From assembly GCA_022495995.1 (NCBI GenBank), contig JAFEMH010000337.1:186001-250000 (forward strand): a DNA stretch of 64,000 nt. Reading direction: 5' to 3'. A program made the translations under genes and the position numbers. Each line of letters starts with the position of its first letter. Position 1 is the first letter of the stretch. Source of the stretch: Adenophora triphylla var. japonica (Eukaryota > Streptophyta > Magnoliopsida > Asterales > Campanulaceae). Below the pieces are notes generated by a model. It searched no databases and had not been told where the DNA came from. It saw only the letters and a list, made by a program, of their open reading frames with translations. Positions 421-39,573 of this stretch are shown here, in pieces.

Positions 421-460
421 CCTATCCGCGCGGATAGGAGCGTGTTCCAGGGTTTTAAAT
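421..460 (+). promoter_or_regulatory. Promoter of antisense PMD gene: perfect 18-bp palindrome plus TATA-like box
   Basis: CCTATCCGCGCGGATAGG at 421-438 is a perfect palindrome, followed by TTTTAAAT at 453-460. A GA-rich leader (511-530) leads to the ATG at 600. The 12-bp core ATCCGCGCGGAT recurs before the DUF7745-like gene and in the LTR of the same element. Promoter function is inferred from position. Confidence 0.65.
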
Positions 461-599
461 GAGGGCCAACGCCCTTCCTCTTCCCTTGTCTGTTTTTACA
501 GAAAATTACGAGAGAGAGAGAGAGAGAAAAGTCAGAAAAAACCGCCATTGTTGGGCAAAAAAGCTTCGAAATCTTCCGATTTTTTTTGATTTTCGAGCA

Positions 600-3433
600 A
601 TGGAACACGGGGAAGGCGCTTTTCAAGGCCAAGGACGTGGCCCGGTGGCGGAGAGACGATTGGAGCTCGTCCGGATGAGGAGGCATTATACTCTTTCGCA
701 ATCGATTGCGGAGGAGCCATACCCCGATGCTTGGCAACATTGGGCCACCGATCCGAGTCTCCGAACGGTATACTTCGAATCTTTTCATTCCCTTTGTTGA
801 TTTCTTGTTTGAAATTTTGAATTTTGGGTGATTTTTGAATTTTTTTTTTTTTTGAAAATTCGAATGATTGATGTTCATTGTCTTGGATCTTGATTTTGAT
901 GCTTTGCATGTTATGAGTATATGAGTAACCCAAAATGTGCATTTTGCTTGGAGAAAGAATTGGCCTTTTCGCCATTTTTTTTTTGTAAATTCGAAAATTA
1001 TGAATTGTGACTTTGATTTTTTTTTTGAAATTGAATATTGATATTGATGAATGATGCAATGCATGCATTTTGTTTGGAAAGAATGGGCATTTTGCCAATA
1101 TGAGATGTATGTATGTTTAGGATTATTTTTTTTGAAAAGTGGGACGGATTTTTCCTTCCGTTGCATGTAAGATGGATGATATGCATGTATGCATTTTTTT
1201 TTTGAAAATGGGACGGAGTTTTATTTTCGTCGACTTCTTGTAGGATATGCATGTATGCATTTTTTTTTATTGAAAATTGTTGAATGGGATTTGCTGAAAA
1301 CTGTCTTTTCTGTGAGAAAAATGGGGCTATGTCTATTGCATGCCGTTATGCTGCTGAAATTTTTTTTTTAATGCATGTGAATGTTTTTTTTTTTGTGCAA
1401 ATGCAAATGCAATTTTTTTTTGACATTTTCTCTCTTTTTTTTTTTTGCAGGGCGGAAACCGTTTTGTGACGGAGCAGCTGAACAAAATGAAGACTCGAGG
1501 ATCAGTGGAGTCCGTAGTTGACCTGTGGGATCGGCTTCCGGATGTGGGCCGAGGAGCTTTGCCGAGTCCGAGACAGATTGTTGTTGAGACGGGGCTTTGG
1601 GAGTTCGTTGAGTGCTTGAGGGGGCTGGTCAAGTTCCCTAAGAGCAAGGGCCTGATGTTTGCTTTGGCGCAGCATTGGTGGGACGCGACCCACACCTTTC
1701 ACTTCTTCTGGGGCGAGGCTACGGTTACGCCCTCCGATTACGCTGCGATCACGGGCCTGTCCTTCAATGGACGCAGCATTGAGTGGCGGGATGGCTACAG
1801 CGATGCGGATCTACAGGCTCTTCTGGGATTTTCCCCTATTCCCAAAAAGGGGATGGGGATGGAGTATGCCGTGGTCTACGGTAAGATTGTGGAGACCATC
1901 GTGAGCTACGAGGCCGAGGAGGAGAGGATAGGCGCTGAGCAGATCGCTAGGGCCTTCTTGTGGTTTGCTTTTTCGAGCACCCTCTTTGGGCATGCTGAGG
2001 GGACGGCAGTCTTTGCCTTGCTGAGGTCCTTGGAGGACATGGAGACGGTCGGAGATGTCTCGTGGGGAGAGGCCGGGCTGGCAGAGCTTTACTTTGCTCT
2101 TGATAGGTACAGCCGGAAGGCTGTGAGCTCCTTGTCCTGCTTTGAGTTTGCCCTGGAGGTATAAGCTCTCTTTTTGCTTTCCCTCTTTTTTTGAGCACGC
2201 ACTTTCCTTTTGCATGGATTGATTGGATTTTTACCTTTCGCAGGTATGGGCGTTGGAGTTTTTCCACGTCAGGATGTGGCGGCACGGCGGAGTACGTCGG
2301 GCGTATCCGGCCATGCAGTCTTGGTCCAAGCATGCCCGGGAGAAGATAAGCTCCAGGGGGCGTACGACTCTCAGGTACGCGGATTGCCTTCCTTTGACGG
2401 AGGCCGAGACGGATGAGGGGATGATATTCTTCCCCCGGGATCGCTTCGAGGTGGCGCACTGAAGGGCGCCGAGATTTGGACTGTGCAGCGGAGGATTATG
2501 AGAGGTCTGACCTGCGATGCATATTATCTGGGAGAGAGGGTGACGCGCCAGCATGGCGTGAATTCGCCTTTGAGGACACCGGTGGAGCCTCCCGCCGATA
2601 TGATGCACCCGAGCGATCGGTCCGTGACCTGGGATGATTACCGAGCCGGCCAGCACTTCTCGGATTTCGTGGCGATTGAGCCATATGCGAAATTCGTCTT
2701 GAGGAGGCTGAGGATGCCTCAGGTTCTGGATAGAGAGGGGCTTGGGATCCCGCGGTACCCTCGGACGGATTTTTCATATATCCAGGATGGGGTCCGATTG
2801 AGGGTGCAGATCCCTCAGCCTGAGCGGCTTCCACGAGCTTTCCGGCCTCGTCCGGGTATGAAGGTATGGCTTCACCTTTCTTTTTTTTTTCTTTTGTTTC
2901 ATCATCTTTAGCATCACTTCCTTTTTTGACGCTTTTGCTTTTGTGCAGTTTTCGGAGGTGGTCGTCGAGAAGCTGACGAAGCAAGTGATCGGAGCCAAGA
3001 GATTCATCAGGAGGATGGTCGCTTGCGGGGCTCCTCAGGCTAGAGCGAGGCGACCACGGCCGGCGCCTGTCAGATGGGAGGCTTCCCCTATTCGCTCAGA
3101 GACTTCTTCAGAGACTCCTCTGTCTCCTCTCCTTGATCCCCGCGCGGTGCTGCCTTCGGATCACGTCATTCTCGGGGATCCACACGGGCAGGGACACGTA
3201 TGGCAGCATGGCGGGTCGTCTTCGTACGTCCAGGAGTCCGACGCCTTCACCTTCGGATACGATTTTTCGCAGATCTCGGCTTGCCCTATCAGAGCGTACC
3301 GGTTGGTCCTGATGAGCCTCTTTCTGGAGACGAGGACGATTCTGAGCCCGAGATTTACAGGGCTCCTGAGGAGGCGGGCCCGAGTCGCAAGAGGGGCCGG
3401 GGCGGTACATCGGGCGCTAGAGACTCCGATTGA
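600..3433 (+). CDS. Plant mobile domain (PMD/MAIN-like) protein, four exons, antisense gene of Element 1
   Basis: Exons 600-767, 1451-2158, 2244-2863 and 2949-3433 join in phase 0 with GT...AG borders and T-rich acceptors (TTTTTGCAG, TTTCGCAG, TTGTGCAG). Exon 2 carries the PMD core: HWWDATHTFHF near 1672-1704, then GEATVTPSDYAAITGL, and a FLWFAFSSTLFGH segment. PMD proteins are plant proteins related to MAIN and to the aminotransferase-like domain, often found in transposons and linked to silencing; no reaction is established. The tail is acidic then basic (GPSRKRGRGG), which would suit a nuclear protein. Two frame breaks are seen, near 2460 (stop at 2460-2462, reading resumes as EIWTVQRR) and near 3280, so this copy may be recently dead or contain sequence errors. 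Intron 1 (683 bp) is T-rich with repeated ATGCATGTATGCAT. Elements 2 and 3 carry the same gene in the same place. Confidence 0.7.
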
Positions 3434-3779
3434 TTTTTTTTTTCTTTTGAGATTTGAGATTGAGATTGAGATTGAGATTTGTACAGCTTATGCACATTTT
3501 TTTCCTCCTTTTTTTGGGATGTAATAATTTAGGATTTTATTAATGTTTGTTTGTTCTTTTTTTTGGAATGTAATAATTTAGGATTTTATTTTATGAATGC
3601 AATGCAGTATGAATGCAGTGTTGCATGAGCCTTGGTTTTTTTTTTTTTTGCAAGGGTGTTTGGTATATGGACTGGTTTGGGGAGGTTTTTGCACAGGTTT
3701 CGAGCAACCGGGACGGAATATTCCTCTTTTGGTGTAGCAGCTTGGACTGTTGCAGATTTTTCTGATGGAAAACAAACAT
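3434..3779 (+). other. Non-coding stretch between PMD gene and DUF7745-like promoter
   Basis: Holds GAGATT repeats (3450-3478), poly-T runs and a near-exact duplication of a 24-bp AT-rich block (3518-3541 and 3567-3590). It probably contains the PMD 3' UTR and polyadenylation region. No gene seen. Confidence 0.5.
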
Positions 3780-3791
3780 ATCCGCGCGGAT
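3780..3791 (+). promoter_or_regulatory. Palindrome ATCCGCGCGGAT upstream of the DUF7745-like gene (Element 1)
   Basis: A perfect 12-bp palindrome 127 bp before the ATG at 3918. It has the same core as at 421-438 and 31627-31638, the other two promoters of this element. A TATA box is not clear; TTTAATTTT near 3820 is the best candidate. Confidence 0.6.
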
Positions 3792-3917
3792 GGGGTCCTG
3801 CATCTGACATTGTCCTTTAATTTTGCTTCAGATCTGGTCTCACTTTATTTCAAATTCAAATATCCTCTTCAACCTCCAGTCCAAACAGCCATTTTCGGGG
3901 AGAAAGAGAGAAAAACC

Positions 3918-5420
3918 ATGGAAAACTTTAGAAAAGCTCCATCAAAATTGTCCCAAGAATCCCAAATGTCATTCTTCGACAAGTTCAAGGATTGGTCTCG
4001 GGAGATTATGCATGAGAGGAGGTCCTTCTTTGAAGAAAGGTACAAGGTGAAGTGCTTATGGTCTCTCAAGGAATTGATTCCGGATTACAGTCTTTTGAGG
4101 GCTTCTTCCTCATTTTGGGATACTAGGAGGCATGTCTTTTGCCTTTCCTTCAACGAGATTGTTCCGACTGTCGAAGAGTTTCGGGCCTTGCTTGGTGGTC
4201 CGGAGGTGGAAGAGATAGCGGTTCCTTTGCCCGGAGGGGCTTCTTTTGTTGACAGATTGTGCGTCCTCCTTCATCTTTCCCCGGAGGAAGCGCAAGGTAT
4301 GATCCGCGGTCCCGATCATTTCGATATTTCCGGTCTTCCCGACAGATTTAGGGGCCTAGGCTTGGATGATGCCTATTGGGATGCCTTTGCACTTTGTATG
4401 TTTGGCACCCTGTTCATGGTCTATTCCTTTGGGATTTGCCATCGGTCTTTGCTGGATGTTGTCGTTCACTGTCGCCTGGGCAGAGATGTCGTTCCTTTGA
4501 TTTTGGGAGAGACTTTTCATGCTCTCGATAGGCTGGCTACCGGAAGACGGTATATGCACGGGGGCAGCCCGTTCCTCTTGACCCTGTGGCTGATGGAGCG
4601 TTTGGGGATTCTTCGGGAAACTCCCGACATGATCAAGCCTTGGACATTTGCCAGGAGGGGGGTTGCTGTGGATTTCGATGATCAGGGCTCATGGGAGCGT
4701 TGGATGGCTGGTCTCCGGACAGAAGATATCAGATGGTCAGTGCCTTGTTGGCGGGTGGAGACTCGCAGAGTGCTTCAGGATGGGTCTCATGTGGTCATGC
4801 TTCCGGGGCTTTCTCAGTCCAGCTTCTATATTCCGGCTTTAGTTCTGAGACAGTTTGGCCTGGAGCAGGTTCCTTTGGGGGACTTTGATGATATAGCCAC
4901 CAGGGTGGTGGCTCCTGTTTCTATGGATGATCCCTCAGTGTTTCCATTTCTTTCCCGAGCATGGAGGTATGATGCCTTTCCTCCTCGGGTCATTCTCAGG
5001 CGTCCGAGACCGGTGTTCCTGACCACTTGGTACCTGGATTGGTATGAGAGGCATTTAGGAGAGACTCAGATGGCTATTTTGAGACGGCGTGAGGCCATTG
5101 TGGGTGCGGAGGACCCGAATGTTTCTGAGAGGAGGAGGGCCGAGGCGAGGGCCAACCCTCATGATAGGAGTGGAGACGCTGTGACCGATTATGAGGCTTA
5201 CGTCAAGAGACAGGAGAGGAGGGCTCCTATGCTACCAGCTAGGCTACAGGAGATGAGAGATGACGCTAGGGCTACTAAGGCCCTGACAGAGGCTGGTTTG
5301 ATAGATCCTGTTCCTATACCAGAGCTTGGTAGGAGAAACACTGACATTTTTCCTGTTCAGAAAAAGAAGACTCGAAGGGGGAAGAAGAGGGGAGAGGCCA
5401 GTACGAGTGGCTTGGAGTGA
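3918..5420 (+). CDS. DUF7745-like retrotransposon accessory protein, intact, antisense gene of Element 1
   Basis: An uninterrupted 500-residue frame from ATG 3918 (context AAAAACCATGG) to TGA 5420. Upstream in-frame codons exist, but MENFRKAP is chosen because the Element 2 and 4 copies also begin near here. Key conserved blocks: SSFWDTRRHVF, then NEIVPTVEEFRALLGGPEVE (residues ~80-100), VVPLILGETFHALDRLA mid-protein, and LTTWYLDWYERH in the C-terminal third. The tail KKKTRRGKKRGE resembles a nuclear localisation signal. The FxxxxxVPTxEEFxxLLG pattern recalls the plant family DUF7745, which has no known function; the assignment is from memory of the family. The gene converges on pol, the two stops lying 480 bp apart. 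It is the only fully open copy of four in the window, although the pol beside it is broken. Confidence 0.75.
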   Translation: MENFRKAPSKLSQESQMSFFDKFKDWSREIMHERRSFFEERYKVKCLWSLKELIPDYSLLRASSSFWDTRRHVFCLSFNEIVPTVEEFRALLGGPEVEEIAVPLPGGASFVDRLCVLLHLSPEEAQGMIRGPDHFDISGLPDRFRGLGLDDAYWDAFALCMFGTLFMVYSFGICHRSLLDVVVHCRLGRDVVPLILGETFHALDRLATGRRYMHGGSPFLLTLWLMERLGILRETPDMIKPWTFARRGVAVDFDDQGSWERWMAGLRTEDIRWSVPCWRVETRRVLQDGSHVVMLPGLSQSSFYIPALVLRQFGLEQVPLGDFDDIATRVVAPVSMDDPSVFPFLSRAWRYDAFPPRVILRRPRPVFLTTWYLDWYERHLGETQMAILRRREAIVGAEDPNVSERRRAEARANPHDRSGDAVTDYEAYVKRQERRAPMLPARLQEMRDDARATKALTEAGLIDPVPIPELGRRNTDIFPVQKKKTRRGKKRGEASTSGLE

Positions 5421-9781: not shown

Positions 9782-9976
9782 TGTAAGTACCCCAATCTGG
9801 ATCACACCCTTTCAAACACACGGGAAACACCGCAGACTCATCAACACAGTCTCGACGACCCCTCTCACTCAAAACCCTCTCTAAACCCCCAACCAAACCA
9901 AGGGAGGAGCCTTCCTGGGATAAAAAGGGACAAAAGGACCTTTCGGGAATTTTCAGGAAATTGGGAAAGCAATATT

Positions 9977-10255
9977 GGTCCGTACGGACCTCTTTATTGT
10001 CATAATTACTGAATCTTCTTAAAGTCCACAATATTCCCTCAAATCCCGGAAGAAATGATTACCCACATGCTTAGTTGGTCCGTACGGACCTCTTTGCATG
10101 CAAGATGGTCCGTACGGACCTTGTTGCTCAGGGGACACCATAATTGCAAATATTCCTCCATCATCACAGATTCCCTCAAATCGAGGAAAACCAAAATACT
10201 GGATTACTGTGAGGTCCGTACGGACCTCTTTGCACCTAATCGGGCACTATAAATA
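9977..10255 (+). promoter_or_regulatory. U3 promoter of Element 2 left LTR: four palindromes and TATAAATA
   Basis: GGTCCGTACGGACC at 9977-9990, 10077-10090, 10107-10120 and 10213-10226; three are followed by TCTTT and two by TCTTTGCA. TATAAATA at 10248-10255 lies 21 bp after the last site. All four are perfect 14-bp palindromes. Confidence 0.8.
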
Positions 10256-10777
10256 GAGGGCTCCCCTCCTCATTTTCACACACCTCCCACTTCTCTCTTC
10301 CTCCCTAGGCCTTCCGGCTTCCCTCTAAGTCCTTCCGAGGCATTCCCGCCCTTTCGGATCCTTCCGAGGCCTTCCGAGCCCCCTCGTGGTGCTCCGAAGC
10401 CTCCCCGAGCGCTCCCGAGACGCTCCCGCGCTGCCCCGAGGCACTCTCGAGGTACTCGAGGCCCCTCGTGGTACTCCGAGGCCTCGCTCGGTCTTTCCAC
10501 GGTGTCCCGCTCTTTCCGAGTCAAACCGGCGATCCCAAACCACGCCGAAACTCGCCCGAGTGACTCCCGCCACCACAACGCACGCCGAACCTCTCGCCCG
10601 AGTGATCCCGACGATCCCCACGCACGCCGAACCTCTCGCCCGAACGCAGCCACAACCTCAACTCACGCCGAAACTCCGTCCGCGTACAACCGGCATCTCC
10701 CGAAGCAATCCCGATCCGCACCGAACGCTACTCCGACCTCAAACACTATTCCCCGGCGGAAGACGTACACGAACCAA

Positions 10778-10790
10778 CATTGGTAAGGCT
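10778..10790 (+). other. Putative 5' splice donor in LTR leader (Element 2)
   Basis: CAACATTG|GTAAGGC with GT at 10783-10784, about 500 bp after the TATA box. The same context occurs in the right LTR (about 26160) and in Element 5 (minus strand, about 57948). Elements 1, 3 and 4 have GTAA donors at a similar place. Splicing is inferred only. Confidence 0.35.
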
Positions 10791-11198
10791 TCCTTCCATT
10801 ACTATTTCAATACATTTCCATACATAGCATACAATGTAGACATCCGATACAAAGATGCATTTTTAAAAAGCACACACACACACACACAACATTTAAAGGA
10901 TATTAGGGTATCCGAAAGACTCGTTTACGAGGCTACTCGGGTGAGCTCTAATATTCTAATATTCTCTTCCCGAGGAGTCATCTCGACCTCCGAACTCAAA
11001 ATCTCATCACACAAAAACAGCTTTAAAATTATCTTTAAACCGATGCCCTTTTTCAATGTTTTGGGCTTAATAAAAACGGCGTGGCGACTCTACAAATGCG
11101 AAAACAAACGGCGAGACACCTCCAACGCGAAAAACGCCGCAAAGCGGGAAATGCCAGATGCCGGGCCGCGAAGCCCGCTCGGATCCGGGCTATTTCGC

Positions 11199-18235: not shown

Positions 18236-19740
18236 TCATTCCGCGCCATCTCGCGCTTGTCCCTCGCCATTCTTTCCTTTCTTCCCTCGTCCCCGCGAGT
18301 CTTCTTTCGCTCCACGTGAACCAACTCGCGTCTCTCGCCCGAGATCGTGGGTCCTCCCCGTAGAGTCAAACAATCCAAGAGCTCTCGTGGCTTCATTCGC
18401 CCGTGCTTCGGCTCGGATCTCCTCCCCGCGAGTCCGTAAAGAGGACCTCTCCCCGTCGCCGGTCAACTCTAGTCTCGTAGTCAAACAAAGTGTCTCCCGT
18501 CACATCCAAAGGGTCGACTGTGCTTCGGCACTCCTAAGGCAATAGCTACTACGGCAACCGGTCCTGCACCGCTACACGCCCGCTCTCCAAGACCACTTGG
18601 GATCGCCCAACACGCCGCTCATACCAAAGCCAGGTACCGAGTCGTCAACACGACACTCTCCCGACGTCTAAGGAGTACCACAGAGGGAAAGCGGAATACT
18701 TCCATACCCTCGTAAAATACAAGAAGGCACTTGAAGCCGCCATACAAAGAGGAACTACCTCCGCAGAGCAAGGTCATCCTGCACCAACAAAGGCTCTCGC
18801 TTCATCCCAAACCGCCGGAAACAAGCGACGGAATATAGAAGGAGGACCAAGACAAACCCGGAACTCGACAACGTAGGACCCTTCCCGCAAGATCCTCCTA
18901 GTCTCAATCCTCCAAAGGAACCCACCACGGATCTCGATGCGTACCAAGCCGTGCCATCCATCTCTCCCAAAGTGACCGATCCATATCCAACACAAGAGGT
19001 CGCCGAGCAAATGACCACGGGCTAAACGACGCCGGAGCCTCGGGCATGGCCTCGAAGTCTCTCTCGCAGCCACAAGGTGAGCAAAGCGGGCTTCCCTCTC
19101 ATAAAACGATCCCCACGCCGCACGATCGATACCATGAAGAGTCTCCCCAAAGACCAACGGGACAATATCCTCTCCACTGCAGCTGCCCTACCACATCTAG
19201 CAAAGCCCCATCACAAATGCCAAGGGAGCTGACCATGAAAAGCGTCGCCATCACGAACAAGGCAAAGGCATCCCAAGAGACGTCACTCATCATCAACCAT
19301 GAACCGCTCCGGCAGCCTCGTAAATGTCGATATGACCCGAATCAAGGATCATGCCCCGCACTTCTTCCAACGAAGTACGAAGAAAGCCTCGCAAGCTTCA
19401 CGCTCACCGCAAAGACCACCAATCAAAGGAAGCGAGATGGCCTCCACCTCCGGTCCTCCAATCAAAGCCCGAAAATCCTCAAAAGTGGGCACCATTTCAT
19501 TGTAGGAGAAACAAGACACATGCCTCCTAACATCCTGTAACTTCGCGGCAGCCCGCAACAAATCCCAATCAGAACCAACTCCTTAAAAGACCAAATCGAG
19601 CAAAGACGAAACCTTACCTCGAAAGCCCGTCTCCGATGCCTCATACGGCGCCGCATCCACGTTTTCAACCGCTCAAGGAAGTGTGCTTGCCTCTCCCGCG
19701 AAAGCCTCGGCAAAATTCTAGGAACATACGAAGAATCCAT
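18236..19740 (-). pseudogene. DUF7745-like gene of Element 2, decayed, antisense
   Basis: The start is ATG at 19740-19738 (MDSSYVPRIL). Ordered matches to the intact Element 1 protein: YNEMVPTFEDFRALIGGPEV (about 19500-19440), WDAFALFVMATLFMVSSLGI (about 19280-19220), VFGETLHGID (about 19155), and the C-terminal tail with THDLGRETRVGSRGAKE and a basic GRGKKGKNG end (18400-18240). These sit in different frames. The protein class is secure by alignment to Elements 1, 3 and 4; its function is unknown. Confidence 0.75.
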
Positions 19741-19831: not shown

Positions 19832-19901
19832 ATTTATCTCCTTCCCAAAGCAAGGTTGGTCCGTACGACCTCTTTGCATGCTAAGTATGTCCGTACGGAC
19901 C
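19832..19901 (-). promoter_or_regulatory. Promoter of antisense DUF7745-like gene, Element 2: two damaged GGTCCGTACGGACC sites
   Basis: GGTCCGTACGACC (one G lost) at 19858-19870 and TGTCCGTACGGACC at 19888-19901. A TATA-like GATAAATG (minus) lies near 19832-19838, about 92 bp before the ATG at 19740. These are the same palindromes as in the LTRs of this element. Confidence 0.65.
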
Positions 19902-20221: not shown

Positions 20222-23190
20222 ATCGACTCTCAAGATCATCATCCTCGCCGAGGTCCTCCAGAGAGAAGTCGGGCATCCCCGTGAACTCGCCCGTCACGTC
20301 CTCGTCATCGAGTACCGAGCCCGCCGGAGGCCGCCACTCAAAATAATCCGAAGGATCAAATCCGCGAAAGGATCAAAGAAAGGAAGGCTCGACGAACCCT
20401 CACCCCGCGCATCCCGCCGAGGGAAGAACCGGTAAAGGGTCTCGCGGCCCCTGAGCTCCCGAAGATGTCCCCGCATCCATGCTATGCCGCCCTCGAAGGT
20501 CCCTCCCGCTGCGGCTCCGGCTCGGCTCTAGGCGGAGGAACGCTCCACGTAATGCCTCAAGGCATAGGCTCGTACGCCGGCACGCGTCGCGAAGACCGGC
20601 AAGATATCTTCGAAGCCATCTTCTTCGCAAACGACCTCATCGCCACGTAACGGCGAGTCAAGATATCATAGGCTCTCCCCTGACTCCGCACCAACAAGCG
20701 CCCAAGGAAACGCTCAAGAATACAAGCTTATACTCAACAACAAAAAGAGAAAAATACGTAAAGATGCCAAGATGGAAAAGAGTCAAGACACTCACCGATC
20801 TATCGGGATCCACTCAGATGCAAGCAGAGCTCGCCAGAACGGCATGCATACCCTCCTCTCGATCCGTCCCCACGGACATACGTGAAATCCGGCCCCGCAT
20901 CGAACCTCTGGGAGCTCGCGGGCGCCTCTCTCCTCGCGCGCACTGCGGCGCCCTCGCCTTCCTCCTCACGAAGGCCCCGTACTCCTCTCCATACAAAATG
21001 AACTCCTCGGCGCCGACACCGCCAAGGTACCTCTCGAAATCAAGCACATCCATGTCCCGGGAATCAAGCATCCCAAAGGGAGGGTCCTCTGAGCCACGGG
21101 AAGCACACCGGCCATGCCGCGAAGACCCGCTCCCTGTGTACATGACGCCGCAGTCAAGCCCCGCAAAGATCTTCCGTCGCGCCGTCACTCCTGGAGCCCT
21201 CAAACTCATCCCCTCATACCGAGCCCACGGGAACAAGACGAACCCTCCGGCTACTCCCTCTCTAGACGCTCCCGCACATCCCCGTAGGCGATGGTGAGCT
21301 TCCCCGCCGGGTCCTCCTCTTCCTCGCCGTACGAGCCTGCCAAATTTCAAAGATAGCAGATACGCAAAGAACAGCCCCGGATCTCTATCCCACGGAAGCA
21401 CCGAAAAACCTCATAGAACCACACCGTGACAAAAACAGAAGGCTCAAGCAAAAGAAAAACGGAGAAACGACAAGTTGCTAAATCAAAAACAAGCAATAAA
21501 CTCATACCTCCAAAGCAAAGTCAAAACAGCCAACGAATCGCCACACCCCGGCTAAACCGGTCCAAGGAGAAGTAGAGCTCGCCAAGCCTCGCTCGCCCCA
21601 AGCAATATCACTGCACTTATCCAGTCAATCAAGCTCTCCAACAGAGCAAAGGGAGCCGCGGTCGCGTGGTTCGAGAACAAAGTCTCTGACAAGGCATACC
21701 ACAAAAAGGAGCGCGCCAACCGCTCCGCCGTCACCCGGCCGGTCCCCGAACATAGGCCCCAATACGGCCGTGATCTTCAGCCTCCACGTCACTATACAAC
21801 ATGCCTGTGCCCCCGCGAGGACGAGGCTCAAAGCCCAGCAGCTCGGTCAACACCACATCGTAGATCATATCTTCCACCGTACCGGCCCTCCTTTCAAGGA
21901 AAGCCCGTGATCGCAAAGAAAGTCTGGCCGGCGTCACCGTCACCTCTCCCACTCGATGGAAGGTGTGGGTGGTATCCCACCGCACTCGTAAAGGCCAAGG
22001 AAGACGCTCTTGTTCTTCCTCGTGTCGAAACCCCGGCCTGTGTTCTCGACGAACACCCCTGTGCCGTAAGCGTAAACCAGCCTCCCGGGACTCGGCCTAC
22101 CGTCCACGGAAATATCGTGCATCCGCCGCCATTAGCCAACAACAAATTTCGAGCGATCCCCGAAGTCTTCATCCTCTTGGCCTTCCCGCCATAAGCTCCC
22201 GCATCCCGCAGTAAACACAAAGAAAGGTACGTCAATCACAAGATTTTAATATAAAACAAAAGGCACAAAAGTCCGTCCCAACACGGAAAGCCATGAAAAT
22301 AACCCGTCACAAAACACGGCACACATTGCACATATTTTTCACATATAACCCGTCACAAAACACGGCATATGTCGCACATAATTTTCACATACATTATACA
22401 TATAATTTTTCCCATGCAAACCCGTCACAAAACACGGCACACACCGTACACATTTTCTCAAAAGAAAAAAAAAGGGGATTAAGCCCTACACGACACATTT
22501 TCAAAAAAGTCCGTCCCAACACGGCAAAGGCACATATAACCCGTCACAAAAACACGGCACATATTGCACATATTTTCCCCACAAAGTCCGTCACCCAAGA
22601 ACATGGCACACACGGCACGACACATACGCATAACACATTTTTCAAAAAAATCCGTCCCTACACGGCACACACTTTCAGACAAAACCCGTCACAAAACACG
22701 GCACATGTCACATTTTTTTCACAAAAATTATCACTACACGATAATTTTTCTCATAATGTACATACATAAATAGCATACGGTACAAAACACCAAAGCATGC
22801 ATTTCATTAGAGAGGCACTTTATTTTCACAAATAAGAGCTAATCTACACATTTCTGCACAAAATACACATACCCACAATTTTTACATGTCCATTTTCAAC
22901 AATTCATCAAGAATTTCACAAAAAGGCATAAAAAATAACAAAAATTCAAAAATGCGAAAAACTAAAACCTAGTTCTAGCATTCAAAAATTCGAGCAGGGA
23001 ATCAAAACGGAACGGATTTCTTACCTCCCCGACGTTCATAGAGCGACGATTGTGCACCTCCGGATTCGGATACAATACATACCGGTTCTTCGAAGATGGA
23101 ACGAACGAGATCCAATTTCTTTGAAGCTCCATCCGTTGCTCGACCACCTCGATCAAGGCTGACGACGACTCCTTCGAGATCCTTCACCCA
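20222..23190 (-). pseudogene. PMD gene of Element 2, decayed, antisense, intron-containing
   Basis: Probable exon 1 starts at ATG 23190 (MGEGSRRSRRQP, then a frame break) and ends at a CCG|GTATGT donor near 23083. Exon 2 pieces include RWDTTHTFHRVGEVTVTPA (about 21980-21925) and LARSFLWYALSETLFSNHAT (about 21720-21660), the PMD core. Exon 3 pieces lie at 21400-20810 and exon 4 pieces about 20640-20222. Order and spacing match the genes of Elements 1 and 3. Frame breaks are frequent, as elsewhere in this element. Confidence 0.7.
22290..22705. repeat. Irregular repeat field in PMD intron 1 (Element 2)
   Basis: Eight or so copies of CCCGTCACAAAACACGGCAC or variants (CCGTCCCAACACGG, CCGTCACCCAAGAACATGGC), 38-80 bp apart, each followed by CACATAxxGCACAT-like text. 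Every copy can fold as CCGT...ACGG. It lies within the first intron of the antisense PMD gene. Confidence 0.7.
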
Positions 23191-23303: not shown

Positions 23304-23387
23304 TTTAAACCTCGGTCAAAACCTGGAACCGTAAAACCAAGGTGGTCCGTACGGACCTCTTTGCAACTGTGTTGGTCCGTACGGACC
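23304..23387 (-). promoter_or_regulatory. Promoter of antisense PMD gene, Element 2: two perfect GGTCCGTACGGACC sites and TTTAAA
   Basis: Perfect palindromes at 23344-23357 and 23374-23387, 30 bp apart, both followed on the + strand by TCTTTGCAA. TTTAAAT-type box at 23304-23309 (minus). A GAGAGAGA-rich leader (23240-23262) then leads to the ATG at 23190. Layout matches 421-600 of Element 1. Confidence 0.75.
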
Positions 23388-24227: not shown

Positions 24228-24615
24228 ATGCCTCCACAAATGCGGCTAGAAGACGATTCAAAGTCCTCGCGCATAACATCAACTGCGGCTAGAAGACGAT
24301 TCAAAGTCCTCGCGCATAACATCAATCAAGCGGCTAGAAGACGATTCAAAGTCCTCGCGCATAACATCAATCGCGGCTAGAAGACGATTCAAAGTCCTCG
24401 CGCATAACATCAATCGCGGCTAGAAGACGATTCAAAGTCTCGCGCATAACATCAATCGCGGCTAGAAGACGATTCAAAGTCCTCGCGCATAACATCAATC
24501 GCGGCTAGAAGACGATTCAAAGTCCTCGCACATAACACCAACATGCCGCCAGAAGACGATTCAAAGTCCTCCAGCGTGGCACCAACCGCAATCAGAAGAC
24601 GATTCAAGTCCTCAC
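24228..24615. repeat. Tandem repeat, 43-bp unit, about nine copies (Element 2)
   Basis: The unit begins GCGGCTAGAAGACGATTCAA and continues AGTCCTCGCGCATAACATCA. Central copies are nearly identical; the last two diverge (CCGCCAGAAGACG, CAATCAGAAGACG). It lies between the antisense genes and the 3' LTR. Confidence 0.88.
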
Positions 24616-25121: not shown

Positions 25122-25159
25122 CCCCACTTCTTTCATAAGTGACGCCGTCGAGGGGCTTC
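25122..25159 (+). other. Pre-LTR hairpin and polypurine tract of Element 2
   Basis: CACTTCTTTCATAAGTG (25124-25140) can form an ACTT/AAGT stem. GAGGGGCTTC (25150-25159) is the polypurine tract directly before the LTR. Elements 3 and 4 show the same arrangement. Confidence 0.7.
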
Positions 25160-26574
25160 GTAAGTACCCCAACTGGATCACACCCTTTCAAACACACGGA
25201 AACACCGCAGACTCATCAACACAGCCTCGACGACCCCTCTCACTCAAAACCCTCTCTAAACCCCCAACCAAACCAAGGGAGGAGCCTTCCGGGATAAAAA
25301 GGGACAAAAGGACCTTACGGGAATTTTCAGGAAATTGGGAAAGCAATATTGGTCCGTACGGACCTCTTTGTTGCCATAATTACTGAATCATCTTAAAGTC
25401 CACAATATTCCCTCAAATCCCGGAAGAAATGATTACCCACATGCTTAGTTGGTCCGTACGGACCTCTTTGCATGCAAGATGGTCCGTACGGACCTTATTG
25501 CTCAGGGGACACCATAATTGCAAATATTCCTCCATCATCACGCATTCCCTCAAATCGAGGAAAACCAAAATACCGGATTACTGTGGAGGTCCGTACGGAC
25601 CTCTTTGCACCTAATCTCGGCACTATAAATAGAGGGCTCCCCCTCCTCATTTTCACACACCTCCCACTTCTCTCTTCCTCCCTAGGCCTTCCGGCTTCCC
25701 CTCTAAGTCCTTCTCGAGGCATTCCCGCCCCTTCGGATCCTTCCGAGGCCTTCCGAGCCCCCTCGTGGTGCTCCGAAGCCTCCCCGAGCGCTCCCGAGAC
25801 GCTCCCGCGCTGCCCCGAGGCACTCTCGAGGTACTCTGAGGCCCCTCGTGGTACTCCGAGGCCTTGCCTGGTCTTTCCACGGTGTCCCGGCTCTTTCCGA
25901 GTCAAACCGGCGATCCCAAACCACGCCGAAACTCTGCCCGAGTGACTCCTGCCACCACAACGCACGCCGAACCTCTGCCCGAGTGATCCCGACGATCCCC
26001 ACGCACGCCGAACCTTTGCCCGAACGCAGCCTGCCACCTCAACTCACGCCGAAACTCTATCCGCAAACAACCGGCATCTCCCAAAGCAATCCTGATCCGC
26101 ACCGGAACGCTACTCCGACCTCAAACACTATTCCCCAGCGGAAGACAGACACGAACCAACATTGGTAAGGCTTCCTTCCATTACTATTTCAATACATTTC
26201 CATACATAGCATACAATGTAGACATCCGATACAGCATGCATTTTTAAAAAGCACACACACACACAACATTTAAAGGATATTAGGGGTATCCGAAAGACTC
26301 ATTTTACGAGGCTACTCGGGTGAGCTCTAATATTCTAATATTCTCTTCCCGAGGAGTCATCTGACCTCCGAACTCAAAATCTCATCACACAAAAACAGTT
26401 TAAAATTATCTTTAAACTGATGCCCTTTTTCAATGTTTTGGGCTTAATAAAAACGGCGTGGCGACTCTACAAATGCGAAAACAAACGGCGAGACACCTCC
26501 AACCTGAAAACGCTGCAAAGTGGGAAATGCCAGATGCCGGGGCTGCGAAGCCTGCTCGGATCCGGGCTATTTCA
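25160..26574 (+). repeat. 3' LTR of Element 2
   Basis: Aligns to 9782-11197 over its full length and ends TATTTCA followed by the target duplication. The first T of TG seems lost (CTTCGTAAG where CTTCTGTAAG is expected). Palindromes at 25351-25364, 25451-25464, 25481-25494 and 25588-25601; TATAAATA at 25624-25631. Confidence 0.92.
25351..25631 (+). promoter_or_regulatory. U3 promoter of Element 2 right LTR
   Basis: Four perfect GGTCCGTACGGACC palindromes and TATAAATA, same spacing as in the left LTR. Transcription from here would read into Element 1's gag region in antisense. Confidence 0.75.
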
Positions 26575-30202: not shown

Positions 30203-30203
30203 C

Positions 30204-31936
30204 TGTGATGATGTGTATCCGAAAATTTTCCCATTTTTATTTGAAAAAATCAACGAAACGGAGTCGCCACGCCATTTTTATTTTAAGGGCCAAAACTTTG
30301 AAAAAAGCCCGAGATCAGAGATTTAGGTTCGGAGGTCATGTTACACGCCGGGAAGGACGTTAGTGTGCACCCGGAATGCCTCGTAAAACGAGTCTTCCAA
30401 GCTGAAAATCATTTGTGTGTGTGTGTGTGTGTTTTGGCCAAAATACTTTGAAACTCAGGAAAGTAAAAATTGGGATATCTTTTTAAGACTTTAAACTGAT
30501 CCCATGATTTTTTGGAAGATTTTTGGATTGAGATTTAGTACTCAAAAGACCTTTTGAAGTTGAGAGTCATTTCTGCCAGAATGAAAAAGGCAGTGGACCT
30601 TTGATTTTGAAATGGATTCAAGGGTCTTAAAACTTAATAATCTGGATAAACTCAGAGAATGAAAGTTGTTCCAGACACCTTAAATAAGATTTGTGCAAAG
30701 GAATTTTCCATTTAGGAGAAGATTTAAGGGGTCAAAACCTTCTGGAAATCTCAGATATGAGATCTGGATTCCCAGAAGCTGATGAACTAGCCTCTGAAAG
30801 AAAATTTGAAAAGAGGAGTTTTACTCACCCAAAAAATAAAGTAAAAATATGTATGGAAAGATATGGATGTTGGCTACAAAAAGTGTTTTGTAGTCAACAC
30901 CAAATTCCAAGTTCATCTGTGTCCAAAAATTAATACAATGGACTGAGGTCTGGGAAAATTGCTACTGGACAGCAACTTCCCAAGAGAGAAAATATGATTT
31001 TAAGGGGGGTTTTGCATCCATGCTTGTCCCCATTTCCCTAGGTTTTGGTTAGTGATCACTAGACATTTTAGTGGTGAATCAACTATACCAAACCATCCTT
31101 GGGGTACATTAGGACTAAGCATTTCATTTGCTTGGGGAGGGGGATTTTACCCTTTGAAAATGAGATTTGATGCTTGAAAATGGTTTTTAGGGTTTTGAAA
31201 ATGAGTTTTCTTTGCAAGAAAGTAAGAGAACTTGAAAATAATTTTGATCTTTGTAGAAGATCATCCATGGAGATGGTCTTCCATGGTGATCTTCTTAGAT
31301 CTAAAGCAAGAAGATGAAAGAACTACATTTTGTAGTTTGCAAATGCATGCATGGTTGGAGTTTAGGGTAAGGAGAAGGAGGGTTTACCAATCTTCCTTGT
31401 GTTCTTGAGTTTTTGGCTTGAGTGTATGAGTGTTTAAGGCTTAAGTATGAGAGTGAGTGGATGAGTGTGAGTTGGGAAAGATTGGAGAGAAAATGGTGAC
31501 AATTCTTGAAGAATTCTCACTGTTTTCTCTCTATATTTCGCCAGAGGTTCGGTGCAATTGGTGTTGTTCCTCCTCATTTTTGTGACTGGAGGGCTCAATT
31601 TATAGCCCTCTGAAAGATGCAAACCTATCCGCGCGGATGGGATCCTTCAGCGTGCACTGTTCATTAAATGCAGCTCCAGCTTTGGACAAGAGGAATATTT
31701 CTTTTTGAAATTTCAAATTAACAGCCAGTTTATTGTTCCCAGCCATTTCTATTTGTGGTTTTATTCCTTTTGTTTTACTTTTTGAGATTCCTTTTGAGGT
31801 TTAACCTTAAATAACAATGCCCATTTTACCCTCACTTTGTTAGAAAAGTTAGGATTGTTAGGAATTGTTAGAAATGTTATAACTTTCGTTAATTTTCTAA
31901 CGAAAATTCTAACAAGCTCAAATTGGAGCACTTACA
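30204..31936 (-). repeat. 5' LTR of Element 1
   Basis: On the minus strand starts TGTAAGTGCTCC at 31936 and ends CATCACA at 30204, about 1.73 kb. It contains the palindrome at 31627-31638, a TATA box at 31604-31597, a GTAA donor near 31390, a TG/CA microsatellite (30415-30432) and an internal GTGGCGACTC near 30260. Right flank is ATGAT, inside the RT gene of Element 3. Confidence 0.88.
31597..31638 (-). promoter_or_regulatory. U3 promoter of Element 1 LTR: ATCCGCGCGGAT and TATAAATT
   Basis: Palindrome 31627-31638, then on the minus strand AGGTTTGCATC and TATAAATT at 31604-31597. Only one palindrome is seen in this LTR. TTTGCAT after the palindrome recalls the TCTTTGCAT that follows the Element 2 sites. 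Confidence 0.75.
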
Positions 31937-34767: not shown

Positions 34768-34779
34768 TCTCGCGCGAGA
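34768..34779. promoter_or_regulatory. Extra TCTCGCGCGAGA palindrome between pol and DUF7745-like gene (Element 3)
   Basis: A perfect 12-bp palindrome 164 bp after the pol stop and 300 bp from the DUF7745-like stop, so near two convergent 3' ends and not near an obvious TATA box. Role unclear. Confidence 0.5.
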
Positions 34780-34905: not shown

Positions 34906-35077
34906 CAAATAAATAAATCTACTTTTGTCCTTTTATTAATCGAATGCATTTTATTAATGGAAAAAGGGAAATCCTAACCACAACGACTAATTTGCTAAGC
35001 TAATAACATTGAAAAAAAATACTAATAAAAGCAAAACTATTGATCTATCAAAGCAATCTCTTGGTACCCCTTATGAT

Positions 35078-36574
35078 CTAGCCTTTCATTGACTTGGTGG
35101 GCCGGCGGACATGGTCACCACCATCTTCGCGATCCTTCTTGTGCTTTGAGCCTCTCAAAGCAGAGCGTCCCTCAAGATGATCAAAGACAGACTCCGAAAG
35201 CCTCTTGAAGACACTGGGCCTATCCAAAGCTTGCGTCTTTCCAGGCATCCCTTTGCCTCGCCTTTCGTACCAATCCCCATCAAGAAAATCCTGGGTTGGA
35301 TCGGTTCGCACATTAGCGGGATCAGACTGAGCCTCGCTCCTTCGCAAAATATTGCTAGCCACAAAAGAATCCCCTAGCAATGAAAGCCGCAGATCATCAA
35401 TCTTCTCCGCACTAGGGTGGCCGGTATGAAGAAACCAATCCAAATACTTGTCAGACAAGAAGATGCTTGCATTAAAAGTTCGAAGGTTCGACCAGCGGTC
35501 CCGACTATTTCCTTCACCCCATGCTTGAGCTAGCGCCTGCGCAAACTCCACACCAATATAAGACACATCACGAGAAGCTCCTTAAAAAAGATAAGTGTCC
35601 TGCTGCTGACCAAACTGACGGAGCACCCGCTTGGGAAAATAAAAGGAGGAATCTCGCAAACCCGGAAGAACAACCCTGTCAAAACGCTTGGTATTGGCAA
35701 CATACTTGTTCAACCTCCAATAAGGCGGACACCAAAGAATGTCAGCAGTTTCAATCTTCGCAATCGACTCAGCCCATTCATCCGCTGAAAGATCCTTGAT
35801 CAACAACTTTCGCGTATGATAGGTGAAAGGGGAATATTCCAATGGGGGACCTACCAACTTGAGATGCTCCCTAAGCCAAATGGTCAACAAAAGAGGACTC
35901 CCTTGAGTCATGGCACCGGTCCTATGCAGCTCGTCAAGACCATGCAAAGTTTCACCCAAGATAAGCGGGACAATGTTCCTAAAACGCTTCCTAGCCTGCA
36001 GAACAATTTCCACCAATTGGGAATCAACCAAGCCATCCCTGCACGTGAATAAAACATCTCGGAAAAGAGAAAGGGCCAGAAAGTTCCGTTTATAGACATG
36101 AAAGGCATCATCATCCGAGTCTCCGCTGAATCGCTCAGGAAAAGAAGAGCAATCCACCCACTTGCGATGAACCAACTCGTAGAAAGTATCAAGGGGGATC
36201 CCTAGCAATTCATTCAAAGCCTCCGAATGATTCATATGGTACTTAGGAACAGCGATCTCACCAGTCAAAGGCATATCCAAGATAATGGCAAATTCCTCCA
36301 TGGTAGGCACCATCTCATTCAAGGAAAAATTGAAAAGATGAATAGAGGGATCCCAAAATCTAGCAGCACCCTGCAACAGATTCCAATCCGGTTGGAGGTT
36401 CTTCAAAGTGAAAAGGATTCTGAATCCGAATTTTGCTATGAACCTATTGCGAGATCGATTGCGAAACGACCTCACAAAATCTCTTGATGCTTGCTTGAAG
36501 GCTTCAACCGCTTCAGACGACAAAGAAAAATCATCAACAATCATGGAAGTTGGGGCAATCTCCTTGGAAGCCAT
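35078..36574 (-). CDS. DUF7745-like protein of Element 3, antisense, one in-frame stop
   Basis: ATG at 36574 (MASKEIAPTSM); the same frame runs to TGA near 35078, broken only by TAA at 35584-35582. Blocks match the intact Element 1 protein: NEMVPTMEEFAIILDMPLTG, NIVPLILGETLHGLDELH, SSFYFPKRVLRQFGQQQ and, after the stop, LSDKYLDWFLHTGHPS. The C-terminus is basic (RGSKHKKDREDGG), as in the other copies. Without the stop the product would be about 498 residues, near the 500 of Element 1. Either a near-intact pseudogene or a readthrough; the former is simpler. Function unknown. Confidence 0.7.
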
Positions 36575-36667
36575 GGATCGTAGGGTTGGAAAAGAAGACA
36601 AGAGTTTCGCCCTAACAGAATATCTCTTGAAAGGCTAGAATGAGTTGTCTGGCCGGACTACAGGGTG

Positions 36668-36747
36668 TTTTTATAGGGAAAACTGACAAAATCCCATTCA
36701 AAGAAGGAAGAGGATTCTGCCTGGGTAGCGTGTCTCGTGCGAGACAC
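36668..36747 (-). promoter_or_regulatory. Promoter of DUF7745-like gene, Element 3
   Basis: GTGTCTCGTGCGAGACAC (36730-36747) is an 18-bp palindrome with one mismatched pair at the centre. TATAAAAA (minus) at 36675-36668 lies about 95 bp before the ATG. A second CG-rich inverted pair, GCGATATATCGC, is beside it at 36757-36768. Confidence 0.7.
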
Positions 36748-37105
36748 CTTGTCCCACGCGATATATCGCCTCGGCAAAACAGCAATAGTTCTGCTCAAAC
36801 AGCAATCTAGCCCTGACTTGACGAAGCAAGTCTCAAAAAACCTGCGCATACAGTTCATAACATGCAGTGCAACACTAAATCTAAGCTCAAAATTGTGGCC
36901 TAGACGGCCATTCCATTTCCAAAACATGGAAAGTCGAGAAAGTCAATAAACTAGCTAATTAGACCTAGGTTTAGGGGTTAAGAAAATCATGTTTTTGTGC
37001 CACCTACTTGTTCTAACAGGTACCAAAGAAAAAGATAAATTGTTTGGGCCCACACGGCCAATATATACGGATCATCAGAAATCAGATAAAGAGAAAAGGA
37101 GGGGA

Positions 37106-39370
37106 TCACGCCATCAAGTCGCTCGAGCCGCCGGCACCTCCGCCATCACCGCCACGGGGGCTACCATCCCTCCTCGACCTCTTGGCTCCGCAAGTAGGAG
37201 TCACCACCGATGCCACTGTCGAGGCCGCCAAAGAAGCCTTATGGACCAGCCTCTCGGACAGGTCCGACACCAGGGCCATCAGTCCCACCATCTTGGTCGC
37301 TCCACGGTTGTAATCGGCTGCAGACAGAGTGACTTGACAACAAAGGAAAACAAATGCTCAGATGAAGTCGGACATATACACTTATATGGACGAATACGAG
37401 AGATAAATACAAACAGAAACATACCGAGGAGACATCCGGCGGAAGGCGGTAACCCTCAGGAATATGATCCAGAGTCGGGATGTGGCCCATCATCGGCATA
37501 ATCCCCATCATGTACGTGTAGCTCAGAGGACCGAAGTCTGGGGCAAAAGGCAGAGAACCAGCAGACTGGGAGGAAGTGCTAGGGGCTGATGAACCTGAGG
37601 CAGAAGCAGAGGCGGAGCCACGAGCGTGCGATCATCTATCACCCACCAAGAGGGGACCCATCAAGCGAGGCAGGAACTCCGCATAAGAGGCCCTGAGGAT
37701 AACACAAGCCGTCGCCACATCACCCACCAAAAGACCTGCATAATCATCATCTGGAATGGAGTAGGTGGGATACATCGCCCTCGGTGGATCCACCGGCACA
37801 TTATATGACAGTCTACCCCGGCCATGCTGTGGGAAGACCCGCTCACTAAGGTACATGGTGTCCCCCTCCAGAGATGCCAACATCCTCTGCATCCCAGTGG
37901 CATCACAAGCACGGTGCACCTCCTGCTCTAACAGGGTCCATGGATAAAGGCCCAACCGCTCATACTCAAAAGTGTCCAGCATGGTCCTCGCCTCTGCCAC
38001 TGTCAGGGTCCACTCCTGATCCTCATCCTCATCAACACTCCGATTGGGGTGGCTCCACCTCCTGATATTCGGGAACAAAGGGGTCCGGCTCTCCAACTCA
38101 AACTTGTACAGCCCAAGGACAGTATAGCCCCATATCTGCACAAGAAAATAGAACGGATTCGGTACAAAATAAAGACAAAGCATACAAGCAAAGAACAGAG
38201 ACAAAGTCAAGAGCATACCTCCCAGGCATAAGAATACCCCGACAGGGTATCCTTAGTGTGCCTACACGCCTCATCCATGGCGTGATAGCAGAAGTCCAGC
38301 CCCGCTGAGCCCCAATCATATCCACTCACCTCATCCAGATTCACCAACAAACCTAACAGAGAAAGACGGGCCATAGAAGAGTGGTTCGCAAAGATGGTCT
38401 CAGAAAGGATATACCAGAGGGCACCCCTCACCAATCGATCAGTGACTGCATTTGGCTTAAGAGCATACTCCTCAATTTGACGCCGGAGGGGTGTTAGCTC
38501 AGCAGCAAATCCCTTAACCTTGTTAGGGACGAAACCGATCAACTGCCTCCACACAGCTGGACCCGCAGGCTTATAACCCGAAGTCTTCGGCAAGGGGTCA
38601 CCAATGAACTCTAGCCTCGTGATAGCAAGGAAATCAGTCGGAGTCATAGTCGTTTCCCCGGAGCGCAAATGCATGGTGTGGGTAGTATCCCACCACCTCT
38701 CCCGGATTGCCTGAAGAACTTGGGGAGTCCGCCTTATCCCCCGAAGATTATCAACAAAGGTCAATAGCCCCATTTGGGCCACCCTATCTCTAACCCCTTC
38801 AAGGTCCTTGATCTTGTCCCACAAAGCTCTCACCAATTTTGGGCTCCCTCGGCAATTCTTCGTTGGCCTATATGACTGCAAAAACAGAAGAAAAACAAAA
38901 GGGGCAATGTTAGAAATCATTCCATGGCAAAAACTCAATGAAATAGAAGAAAATTTTTATTGAGGCATTTCATCGAACACTTGGTGTGTGTATAGGAAAA
39001 GCTTGCCCAAGGATACAATGGATAATCCGAATCAACCTCTCCTACAATCCATGATGTGTAGGAGGCTTATACGCACACAATGCAACAACAATCATCCAAC
39101 GAAATGCACAAAATCAGAGCATGCAAGAAGGAACCTAGTTCTAGACCAAAAGCAATAAAAGAATGGCCATTGATGGAATTTGGATTCAAAAAAGCATGGA
39201 TTCAAGCTCAATGCAATACAAGGATCAAGAGTTGAGGGAAAAGCTCTTACCAAGCCTTCCCGAACAGCGGTGGAGATGTACGCGTGCCTATCGAAGGTGA
39301 GGTCATCGCGGGGATAATCCTTCCCTAGTAAATAACTCCCCAAAATAGGATTCCTTTGTTCTTGAGCCAT
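37106..39370 (-). CDS. Plant mobile domain protein of Element 3, four exons, antisense
   Basis: Exon 1: 39370 (MAQEQRNPILGSYLL) to a CTTG|GTAAGAG donor near 39249. Exon 2: 38875 to about 38220, after TTTTTGCAG, with RWWDTTHTMHLRSGETTMTP and LVRGALWYILSETIFANHSS, the PMD core. Exon 3: 38135 to about 37428, after TTGTGCAG; an in-frame TGA at 37634-37632 interrupts it, with the same frame continuing SHARGSASASASGSS. Exon 4: about 37320-37106, ending GAKRSRRDGSPRGGDGGG, basic and Gly-rich. Exon-intron structure equals that of Element 1. One nonsense codon is the only clear lesion. PMD proteins have no defined chemistry; a role in chromatin or transposon control is family-level knowledge. Confidence 0.72.
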
Positions 39371-39515
39371 TGATTATGGAGGGAGAGAGGATTGAGAATT
39401 GATTGGGAGGAGAATCACCAAGCAATCCACGAAAAATTGTAGAAAAAAATGACCTTGGCTTGAGCTAGGGAGGGAAATTTGAAAAGGATGTTTTCAAATT
39501 AAAAGAGGAGCTGCT

Positions 39516-39573
39516 GTTATATTAGCCCCGACAGTTCAAGTCTTGCACGGTATACCTTATCTCGCGCGAGATA
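39516..39573 (-). promoter_or_regulatory. Promoter of PMD gene, Element 3
   Basis: TATCTCGCGCGAGATA (39558-39573), a perfect 16-bp palindrome. TAATATAA (minus) near 39524-39516 serves as TATA-like box, with ATG 39370 about 145 bp on. Confidence 0.7.

Follow-up and report, generated by a model that had tools for sequence, protein, structure and literature searches.

Do neighbouring retrotransposons of one plant genome each carry regulatory sites of their own, and what would read such sites? The question is raised by a stretch of 64,000 nucleotides from Adenophora triphylla var. japonica (contig JAFEMH010000337.1, positions 186,001 to 250,000), hereafter the window. Self-comparison and Pfam matches showed this 64-kb window to be plant-type DNA made up of nested long terminal repeat (LTR) retrotransposons. 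Five of them, E1 to E5, are Tat/Ogre-type Ty3 elements, and E6 is a single Ty1/copia-like element. Antisense accessory genes are located between pol and the 3' LTR in E1–E4: a DUF7745-like gene in all four, and a PMD gene in E1, E2, and E3. A sequence-only reading of the window had claimed that each element has its own palindrome, common to its LTR and its antisense promoters, and had taken this as a sign of self-specific recognition. The observation itself is confirmed and is stronger than first stated; the interpretation is partly supported.

Palindromic Sites and Their Codes

A strict site was defined as a 12-bp palindrome with the core CGYRCG and three symmetric outer bases on each side, where the central pair may be asymmetric. 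All strict sites have the half-site NNYCGY in common. The half-site codes of the individual elements were ATCCGC in E1, GTCCGT in E2 and E5, TCTCGY in E3, and TGTCGY or AGTCGT in E4. The following sites were found in E1, E2, and E3 (positions are those of the window).

420..439, E1 antisense PMD promoter: perfect 20-bp palindrome TCCTATCCGCGCGGATAGGA, with ATCCGCGCGGAT inside it at 424; ATG at 600
3780..3791, E1 antisense DUF7745 promoter: palindrome ATCCGCGCGGAT
31627..31638, E1 LTR: palindrome ATCCGCGCGGAT, core 25 nucleotides (nt) before TATAAA at 31604 (minus strand)
9977..10228, E2 5' LTR: four palindromes GGTCCGTACGGACC at 9977, 10077, 10107, and 10213, with 25 nt between the last core and TATAAA at 10248
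25351..25603, E2 3' LTR: four palindromes GGTCCGTACGGACC at 25351, 25451, 25481, and 25588, with 26 nt between the last core and TATAAA at 25624
19857..19900, E2 antisense DUF7745-like promoter: GTCCGTACGGAC at 19889 and a copy lacking one base at 19857
23344..23387, E2 antisense PMD promoter: two GGTCCGTACGGACC at 23344 and 23374
34768..34779, E3: perfect palindrome TCTCGCGCGAGA just downstream of integrase, outside the promoter windows defined below
36730..36747, E3 antisense DUF7745 promoter: palindrome GTGTCTCGTGCGAGACAC / TCTCGTGCGAGA, central pair not self-complementary
39558..39573, E3 antisense PMD promoter: perfect palindrome TATCTCGCGCGAGATA; ATG at 39370 (minus strand)
40770..40785, E3 3' LTR: palindrome TGTCTCGCACGAGATA; TATAAA at 40936

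The window contains no exact copy of ATCCGCGCGGAT in addition to those at 424, 3780, and 31627. All palindromes named in the sequence-only reading were recovered by a sequence check. The one of the E1 PMD promoter had been placed at 421–438; it is present, but spans the 20 bp given above. The wording 'forms' chosen for E3 was apt, as the central pair is not self-complementary either at 36730–36747 or in the inner 12-mer of the LTR site, TCTCGCACGAGA at 40772–40783. The E3 site at 34768–34779, the sole strict palindrome outside the promoter windows, adjoins an A-rich/GGGG stretch.

The remaining three elements carry the following sites.

42341..42404, minus strand, E4 LTR: sites AGTCGTACGACGCAACTAGCC and AGTCGTGCGACACAACGAGCC, proximal core 26 nt before TATAAA at 42326
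41606..41696, minus strand, E4 downstream of TATA: TGTGTCACRCGACACA followed by GCC, three times
43900..43958, minus strand, E4 antisense DUF7745-like promoter: the E4 code twice in decayed form, at 43900 and 43935, left out of matrix training
58485..58740, minus strand, E5 LTR: one perfect GGTCCGTACGGACC (58596) and three decayed copies
60309..60367, plus strand, E6 LTR: a site of the E4 code at 60309, whose core precedes TATAAA at 60431 by 110 nt; a weaker one at 60344
61065..61195, plus strand, E6 downstream of the primer binding site (PBS): four sites of the E4 code

Several of the departures from the palindromes in E4, E5, and E6 are changes of CG to TG or CA, which is the usual decay of methylated CpG, and others are not.

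Placement at Promoters

The window contains 19 strict sites, while dinucleotide shuffling gave a mean of 0.4 (maximum 3 in 200 shuffles). Promoter windows, fourteen in all with the two LTRs of E2 counted separately, were taken as the 300 bp that precede an LTR TATA box or the start of an antisense gene. They were drawn after the sites had been seen, and were anchored on features independent of the sites, i.e., TATA boxes and ATGs, with a TTTAAAT box as anchor for E2 PMD. These windows comprise 6.6% of the sequence and hold 18 of the 19 strict sites. At least one strict site was present in 11 of the 14, compared to a mean of 0.019 in local per-window shuffles (maximum 1 in 1000). The windows without a strict site were those of the E4 LTR, E4 DUF, and E6 LTR; with one flank mismatch allowed the E4 LTR was also matched, giving 12 of 14. 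A chance origin of the sites is ruled out by the whole-window and the local shuffles. A general excess of palindromes at promoters was ruled out as well, since only 3 of 21 perfect palindromes of at least 12 bp without CGNNCG fell within the promoter windows. The distance from core to TATA box is 25 nt in E1 and the E2 5' LTR, 26 nt in the E2 3' LTR and E4, and alike in E5, while the LTR sites of E3 and E6 lie 155 and 110 nt away, respectively. We regard the cis code as real with high confidence.

Retroviral dimer-initiation sites are short GC palindromes, and the palindromes described here might likewise have a role at the RNA level, as dimer-linkage or packaging sites in genomic RNA. Those copies in E4 and E6 that follow the TATA box or the PBS would indeed be part of the RNA. 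However, all strict sites except 34768 are in windows preceding a TATA box or a start, among them the starts of antisense genes encoded on the other strand, and the like TATA spacing in four elements points to DNA. A role in RNA is thus considered very improbable.

Identity Within and Difference Between Elements

One LTR, one DUF7745, and one PMD promoter site from each of E1, E2, and E3 were compared. The mean number of mismatches out of 12 was 0.22 within elements and 6.0 between elements, and among the 280 possible partitions no other did as well as grouping by element. When the sites were grouped by promoter type, 6.0 mismatches remained within groups, and this grouping was ruled out. The claim that palindromes agree across LTR and antisense promoters of one element, and differ between homologous elements, is thereby borne out. 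In E5, the second copy of the E2 family, the LTR keeps the E2 code.

The LTR promoters of E1 and E2/E5 can be aligned by TGCA, TATAAAT, and a like distance from core to TATA, and their palindromes differ at two symmetric base pairs. The probability of four changes falling symmetrically by chance is 15/495 x 1/9, about 0.003. A dimer-bound site in which the specificity shifts would be expected to show such a pattern. A dimeric protein supplied by the element itself appears to be the best explanation, because the sites are placed at LTR and accessory promoters, have dyad symmetry, are uniform within an element, and differ between elements in a concerted and symmetric way.

Uniform sites could also arise without any reader, if one unit was duplicated within each element by short-range copying, i.e., template switching or gene conversion. 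We have kept such copying under consideration because two sets of sites have common flanks: the E2 sites are alike for about 10 nt past the palindrome, and the E1 LTR and DUF sites agree at 21 of 40 nt on one side. Some of the sites in E4 and E6 also stand in tandem units. The 40-bp flanks of the other site pairs are, however, near the random level (7–16 of 40), and copying does not explain the confinement to promoters (18 of 19), the symmetric change, or the like TATA distance in E1, E2, E4, and E5. It is judged a distinctly improbable source of the pattern.

The E4 Code and Its Match in E6

Five E4 sites, of which two precede TATA in the LTR and three follow it, served to build a weight matrix, and both strands of the window were scanned with it. 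The five training sites were followed by the E6 LTR (60309), E6 downstream of PBS (61172), and, at rank 8, the E4 DUF7745 promoter (43935), 141 nt before the ATG of the DUF7745-like gene. Among the 16 matches listed, the lower ranks belong to E6 (9, 10, 13, and 16), the E3 DUF7745 promoter (11), the second site of the E4 DUF7745 promoter (12), the E4 tandem array (14), and E5 (15). Since the matrix from E4 LTR sites recovers 43935, the code rule predicted the site in the E4 antisense promoter; the decayed copies there had been noticed by eye before the scan was made.

Self-BLAST gave no match between the site regions of E4 and E6. In a comparison of 24-mers, 15 diagonals had a pair alike at 18 or more positions, where shuffles gave 1.6 on average (at most 6 in 200), and 10 of the 15 link motif sites in both elements. 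The best single match, 21 of 24, was rejected as proof, being reached by 1 of 200 shuffles; it is the number of pairs that is beyond chance. The copia-like E6 thus has the E4 code both in the LTR and past the PBS. It has no known DUF7745 or PMD gene, its later part being outside the window. E4 and E5 follow the rule of one code per element or family, and the 'self-specific' character claimed for the code has to be qualified in view of E6. With the E4 code present in E6, either other elements can steal the code or its reader is a host factor. The fourth code (that of E4), the match in E6, the YTTGC flank described below, and the occurrence of code and DUF7745-like gene together in E4 are additions to the sequence-only reading, in which neither the E4 code nor E5 and E6 appear.

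The flank was examined in 23 cores with at least two of the three symmetric flank bases, with the copies in the E2 3' LTR removed. Of 46 sides, 8 had exact YTTGC at a distance of 6 nt from the core, and at each of the remaining spacings between 3 and 20 no more than one side had it. In a control set of 30 non-symmetric cores it occurred on 1 of 60 sides at spacing 6 and on no more than 2 elsewhere. Six of the eight flanks belong to E2 sites, which have a common flank, and one each to the E1 LTR and E5, so the cases represent few independent events. Outside the counted set, the spacing recurs in E4 (in a site that follows TATA and in the DUF7745 promoter) and in the E6 LTR. Judged by its spacing, YTTGC may be a second contact in four families, though not clearly in E3.

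These observations bear on the main rival explanation, a host factor. Many plant LTRs use host factors, and several host transcription factors, or one family with relaxed bases around CGYRCG, could drive both Ty3 and copia families. The common core YCGYRCGR, with 31 matches in the window against 7.3 expected, the YTTGC flank common to four families, and the E4 code in the LTR of E6 would all be consistent with this. A host factor explains less well why elements within the same host have different, internally uniform codes at homologous promoters, and why the sites of one element, accessory promoters included, differ from those of its neighbour jointly and symmetrically. In addition, no host motif of palindrome form was found among the listed matches in open-licence literature. 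We consider a host factor unlikely, though less so than the other alternatives.

Antisense Genes and the Candidate Reader

The antisense genes of the four elements are as follows.

3918..5420, plus strand: E1 DUF7745 gene, intact open reading frame (ORF) of 500 amino acids with a basic C-terminus (PF24924, E 6.7e-11)
1445..2164, plus strand: E1 PMD piece (PF10536, E 1.8e-23)
18456..19740, minus strand: E2 DUF7745-like gene, broken, found by tblastn with the E1 protein; ATG at 19740
21548..22143, minus strand: E2 PMD remnant (tblastn, E 2.6e-9 and 0.008)
35582..36574, minus strand: E3 DUF7745 gene piece
38207..38938, minus strand: E3 PMD piece (PF10536, E 7.2e-17)
44093..45651, plus strand: E4 DUF7745-like gene, broken (tblastn, E 1e-58; Pfam DUF7745 below cut-off, E 0.0017)

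No match to a PMD gene was found in E4 by tblastn and Pfam comparison. The DUF7745-like protein is therefore the better candidate reader, since in E4 the code persists although no PMD gene could be detected. The basic end of the E1 protein could be a nuclear signal. Pfam models for PMD and DUF7745 both match the E3 protein; homology between the two families was tried by profile comparison and found weak (hhalign probability 4.5%, E 0.0091).

In the proposed mechanism, each Tat/Ogre family would have a private dyad-symmetric operator upstream of its LTR and antisense accessory promoters. From the sites, their placement, symmetry, and flank spacing we infer a dimeric reader, predicted to contact the core palindrome together with YTTGC 6 nt outside it. 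Such a reader would switch the LTR of its element, or relieve it of silencing, and would keep its own gene under autoregulation. Joint drift of protein and sites would insulate the families from one another. Whether the element's own antisense DUF7745-like product, with or without PMD, reads its palindromes is in our estimate an evenly balanced question.

The protein database contained three relatives of the E1 DUF7745 protein (P0001, P0005, and P0006, without genomic context), of which the E3 protein matched P0001 only; a search of the same database with E3 PMD gave no relative. Neither E3 DUF7745 nor E5 pol matched the viral contigs, a collection which we take to be mostly phage, and the DUF7745 alignment A2 had no match in genome and viral contigs. 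The pattern GGTCCGTACGGACC was found in 27 stretches of viral contigs. Two contigs of metagenome 3300032782 (L013, L014, and L027; L017 and L026) each have several copies of it.

Comparison with Known Systems

VANDAL elements are DNA transposons. In Arabidopsis, their VANC proteins bind short family-specific motifs in their own elements, and the VANC6 motif is also present in the unrelated element AT9TSD1 (PMC5735166). According to the parts of that paper available to us, the likeness lies in an element-encoded protein with targets that are related yet not the same, and in short, often tandem motifs in non-coding DNA of the element. Here, too, the regulatory DNA of an element repeats a motif specific to its family. 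In contrast, the VANC21 motif YAGTATTAY is non-palindromic and occurs in arrays of the same orientation (PMC5735166, in part), while the sites here are palindromes of 12–20 bp at Ty3 promoters; and the candidate readers are DUF7745/PMD proteins instead of VANC.

A variant that overlaps with the element-supplied dimer is that the reader, as VANC does, removes or blocks methylation at CpG-rich sites and is not an activator of the classical type. Two or three CpGs are present in every strict site. The two E2 LTRs differ at 22 of 183 CpG positions and at 16 of 1161 others, about nine times as often, an excess which is expected of methylated DNA. None of the 16 CpGs inside palindromes differ between these LTRs, and this leans towards protection, but the value is not significant (p = 0.23). 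Such anti-silencing is held to be fairly unlikely, less so than copying and more so than a host factor.

Accounts of Tat/Ogre/Retand elements agree with the present elements in having antisense ORFs between pol and the 3' LTR. Retand has antisense accessory genes with TRP28, for which a regulatory role was proposed (PMC11963269); PMD is found in extra ORFs of 57% of Ogre elements (PMC6317226); Grande gene23 has its own antisense promoter, and a regulatory role is suspected for antisense ORFs (PMC7264820); PMD-A clades are exclusive to Gypsy elements (PMC5418596). The portions of these accounts used here describe no palindromic code common to LTR and antisense promoters. The sequence-only reading knew of no such description either, and searches of open-licence literature for palindromes, DUF7745, and palindromic LTR codes found none, which is a weak negative. 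The PMD proteins MAIN and MAIL1 are similar in being tied to a promoter motif and to transposon silencing: they are required for gene expression, and the DOWN motif is present in promoters of 25 of 26 such genes (PMC7156037, PMC9899485). They differ in being host genes of clade PMD-C, and in the parts of these papers available direct binding of the motif is not established.

Several results weigh against an element-encoded reader, among them the common flanks of the E1 and E2 sites, the concentration of YTTGC in E2, and the E4 code in E6, all given above. The site at 34768 is outside every promoter window, and the distance to TATA in the E3 LTR departs from that of the other Ty3 elements. No clear YTTGC accompanies the E3 sites (the best being CTTGT, 4 of 5 letters, at 36736), and the E1 DUF and PMD sites have 4 and 3 of the 5 letters, respectively. 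The AlphaFold model of E1 DUF7745 had a mean pLDDT of 35.7 and gave no usable fold; no solved relative was found at E<=1 with the single protein, and a profile gave one match at chance level (E 0.92). Finally, the DOWN motif example CATGCAGTTT, as given in the available text, is not a CG palindrome, unlike the sites here. The full reading, in which private codes are read by the element's own DUF7745/PMD proteins, operator and protein coevolve, and a copia element has copied one code and rides on the regulator of its neighbour, is put forward as tentative; we would place it somewhat below even chances, and above a host factor.

Composition of the Window

The elements and their parts are listed below.

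9782..11196, plus strand: E2 5' LTR, Tat/Ogre-type Ty3, with PBS-like TGGCGACTCACTGGGAA directly after (self-BLAST, sequence)
about 25157–26573, plus strand: E2 3' LTR, 95.5% identity to the 5' LTR
LTR start near 31936, pol 9578 to 5897, minus strand: E1
pol 31937–34549, 3' LTR from about 40568, plus strand: E3
pol 49.9 to 46.3 kb, 3' LTR from about 42662, protease-like piece near 59 kb, minus strand: E4
from 58929, minus strand: E5 LTR, E2 family, 82% identity to E2
59467..60836, plus strand: E6 Ty1/copia-like LTR with TGTTGG..CCAACA ends; PBS-like TGGTATCAGAGC at 60838
1–310, 24242–24613, 39809–40163, and 42995–43387: tandem arrays of E1–E4, units of 74, 43, 41, and 29 bp, respectively

The order of nesting was deduced from self-comparison of the window: E2 probably lies inside E1, E1 inside the pol of E3, and E5 and E6 inside or beside E4 in the right part, with E6 within or adjoining the protease-like piece of E4. 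The E5 ORF 51260–54220 has Pfam matches to RVT_1, RT_RNaseH_2, RT_RNaseH, and RVT_3, and the E3 ORF 32210–33745 matches the same RNase H models plus Integrase_H2C2. We take the RVT_3 match to represent the additional RNase H (aRH). The combination of reverse transcriptase, RNaseH, and aRH in pol is thus present, and PMD accessory ORFs between pol and the 3' LTR were found in E1, E2, and E3; E5 ends before the accessory-gene region, and E4 has only the DUF7745-like gene there. The aRH in pol is a distinguishing mark of Tat (PMC6317226).

PBS-like sequences were examined for two of the Tat/Ogre-type elements: TGGCGACTCTGCTGGGGAC follows the E5 LTR and TGGCGACTCACTGGGAA the E2 LTR. Both may be of the tRNA-Arg type, and TGGTATCAGAGC of E6 may be of the initiator-Met type. 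The domain matches of E6 are weak (Pol_BBD with E 0.028 and zf-CCHC with E 0.088, neither reaching the cut-off), integrase-like pieces were seen by eye, and a further piece had a domain match at chance level only. E6 is hence called copia-like from its LTR ends, PBS, and sub-cut-off domain matches. The E4 piece near 59 kb was at first a candidate for gag and was dropped; it is similar to the part of E5 where weak protease matches were obtained (E 0.14), and Pfam gave no match for the piece itself.

The similarity to E5 pol ends near 51268 and is followed by E4 pol. As no E5 3' LTR is recognisable between them (about 50400–51300), a deletion or recombination between E5 and E4 is suggested. The tandem arrays of E1–E4 each lie on the 3' LTR side of the antisense genes, and their unit sequences differ.

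Significance

Antisense accessory genes are common in Tat-type elements, and the consulted parts of two accounts report no established role for them (PMC11963269, PMC7264820). The code common to LTR and antisense promoters leads to a testable hypothesis, namely that the product of the antisense gene is a regulator which binds the promoters of its own element. If this is true, element-encoded, family-specific self-recognition would extend from DNA transposons, as known from VANC, to large LTR retrotransposons, and an alphabet of distinct palindromes with candidate readers would be at hand. The match between E4 and E6 would then be a case of one element exploiting the regulator of another. The finding also bears on the role of host PMD proteins.

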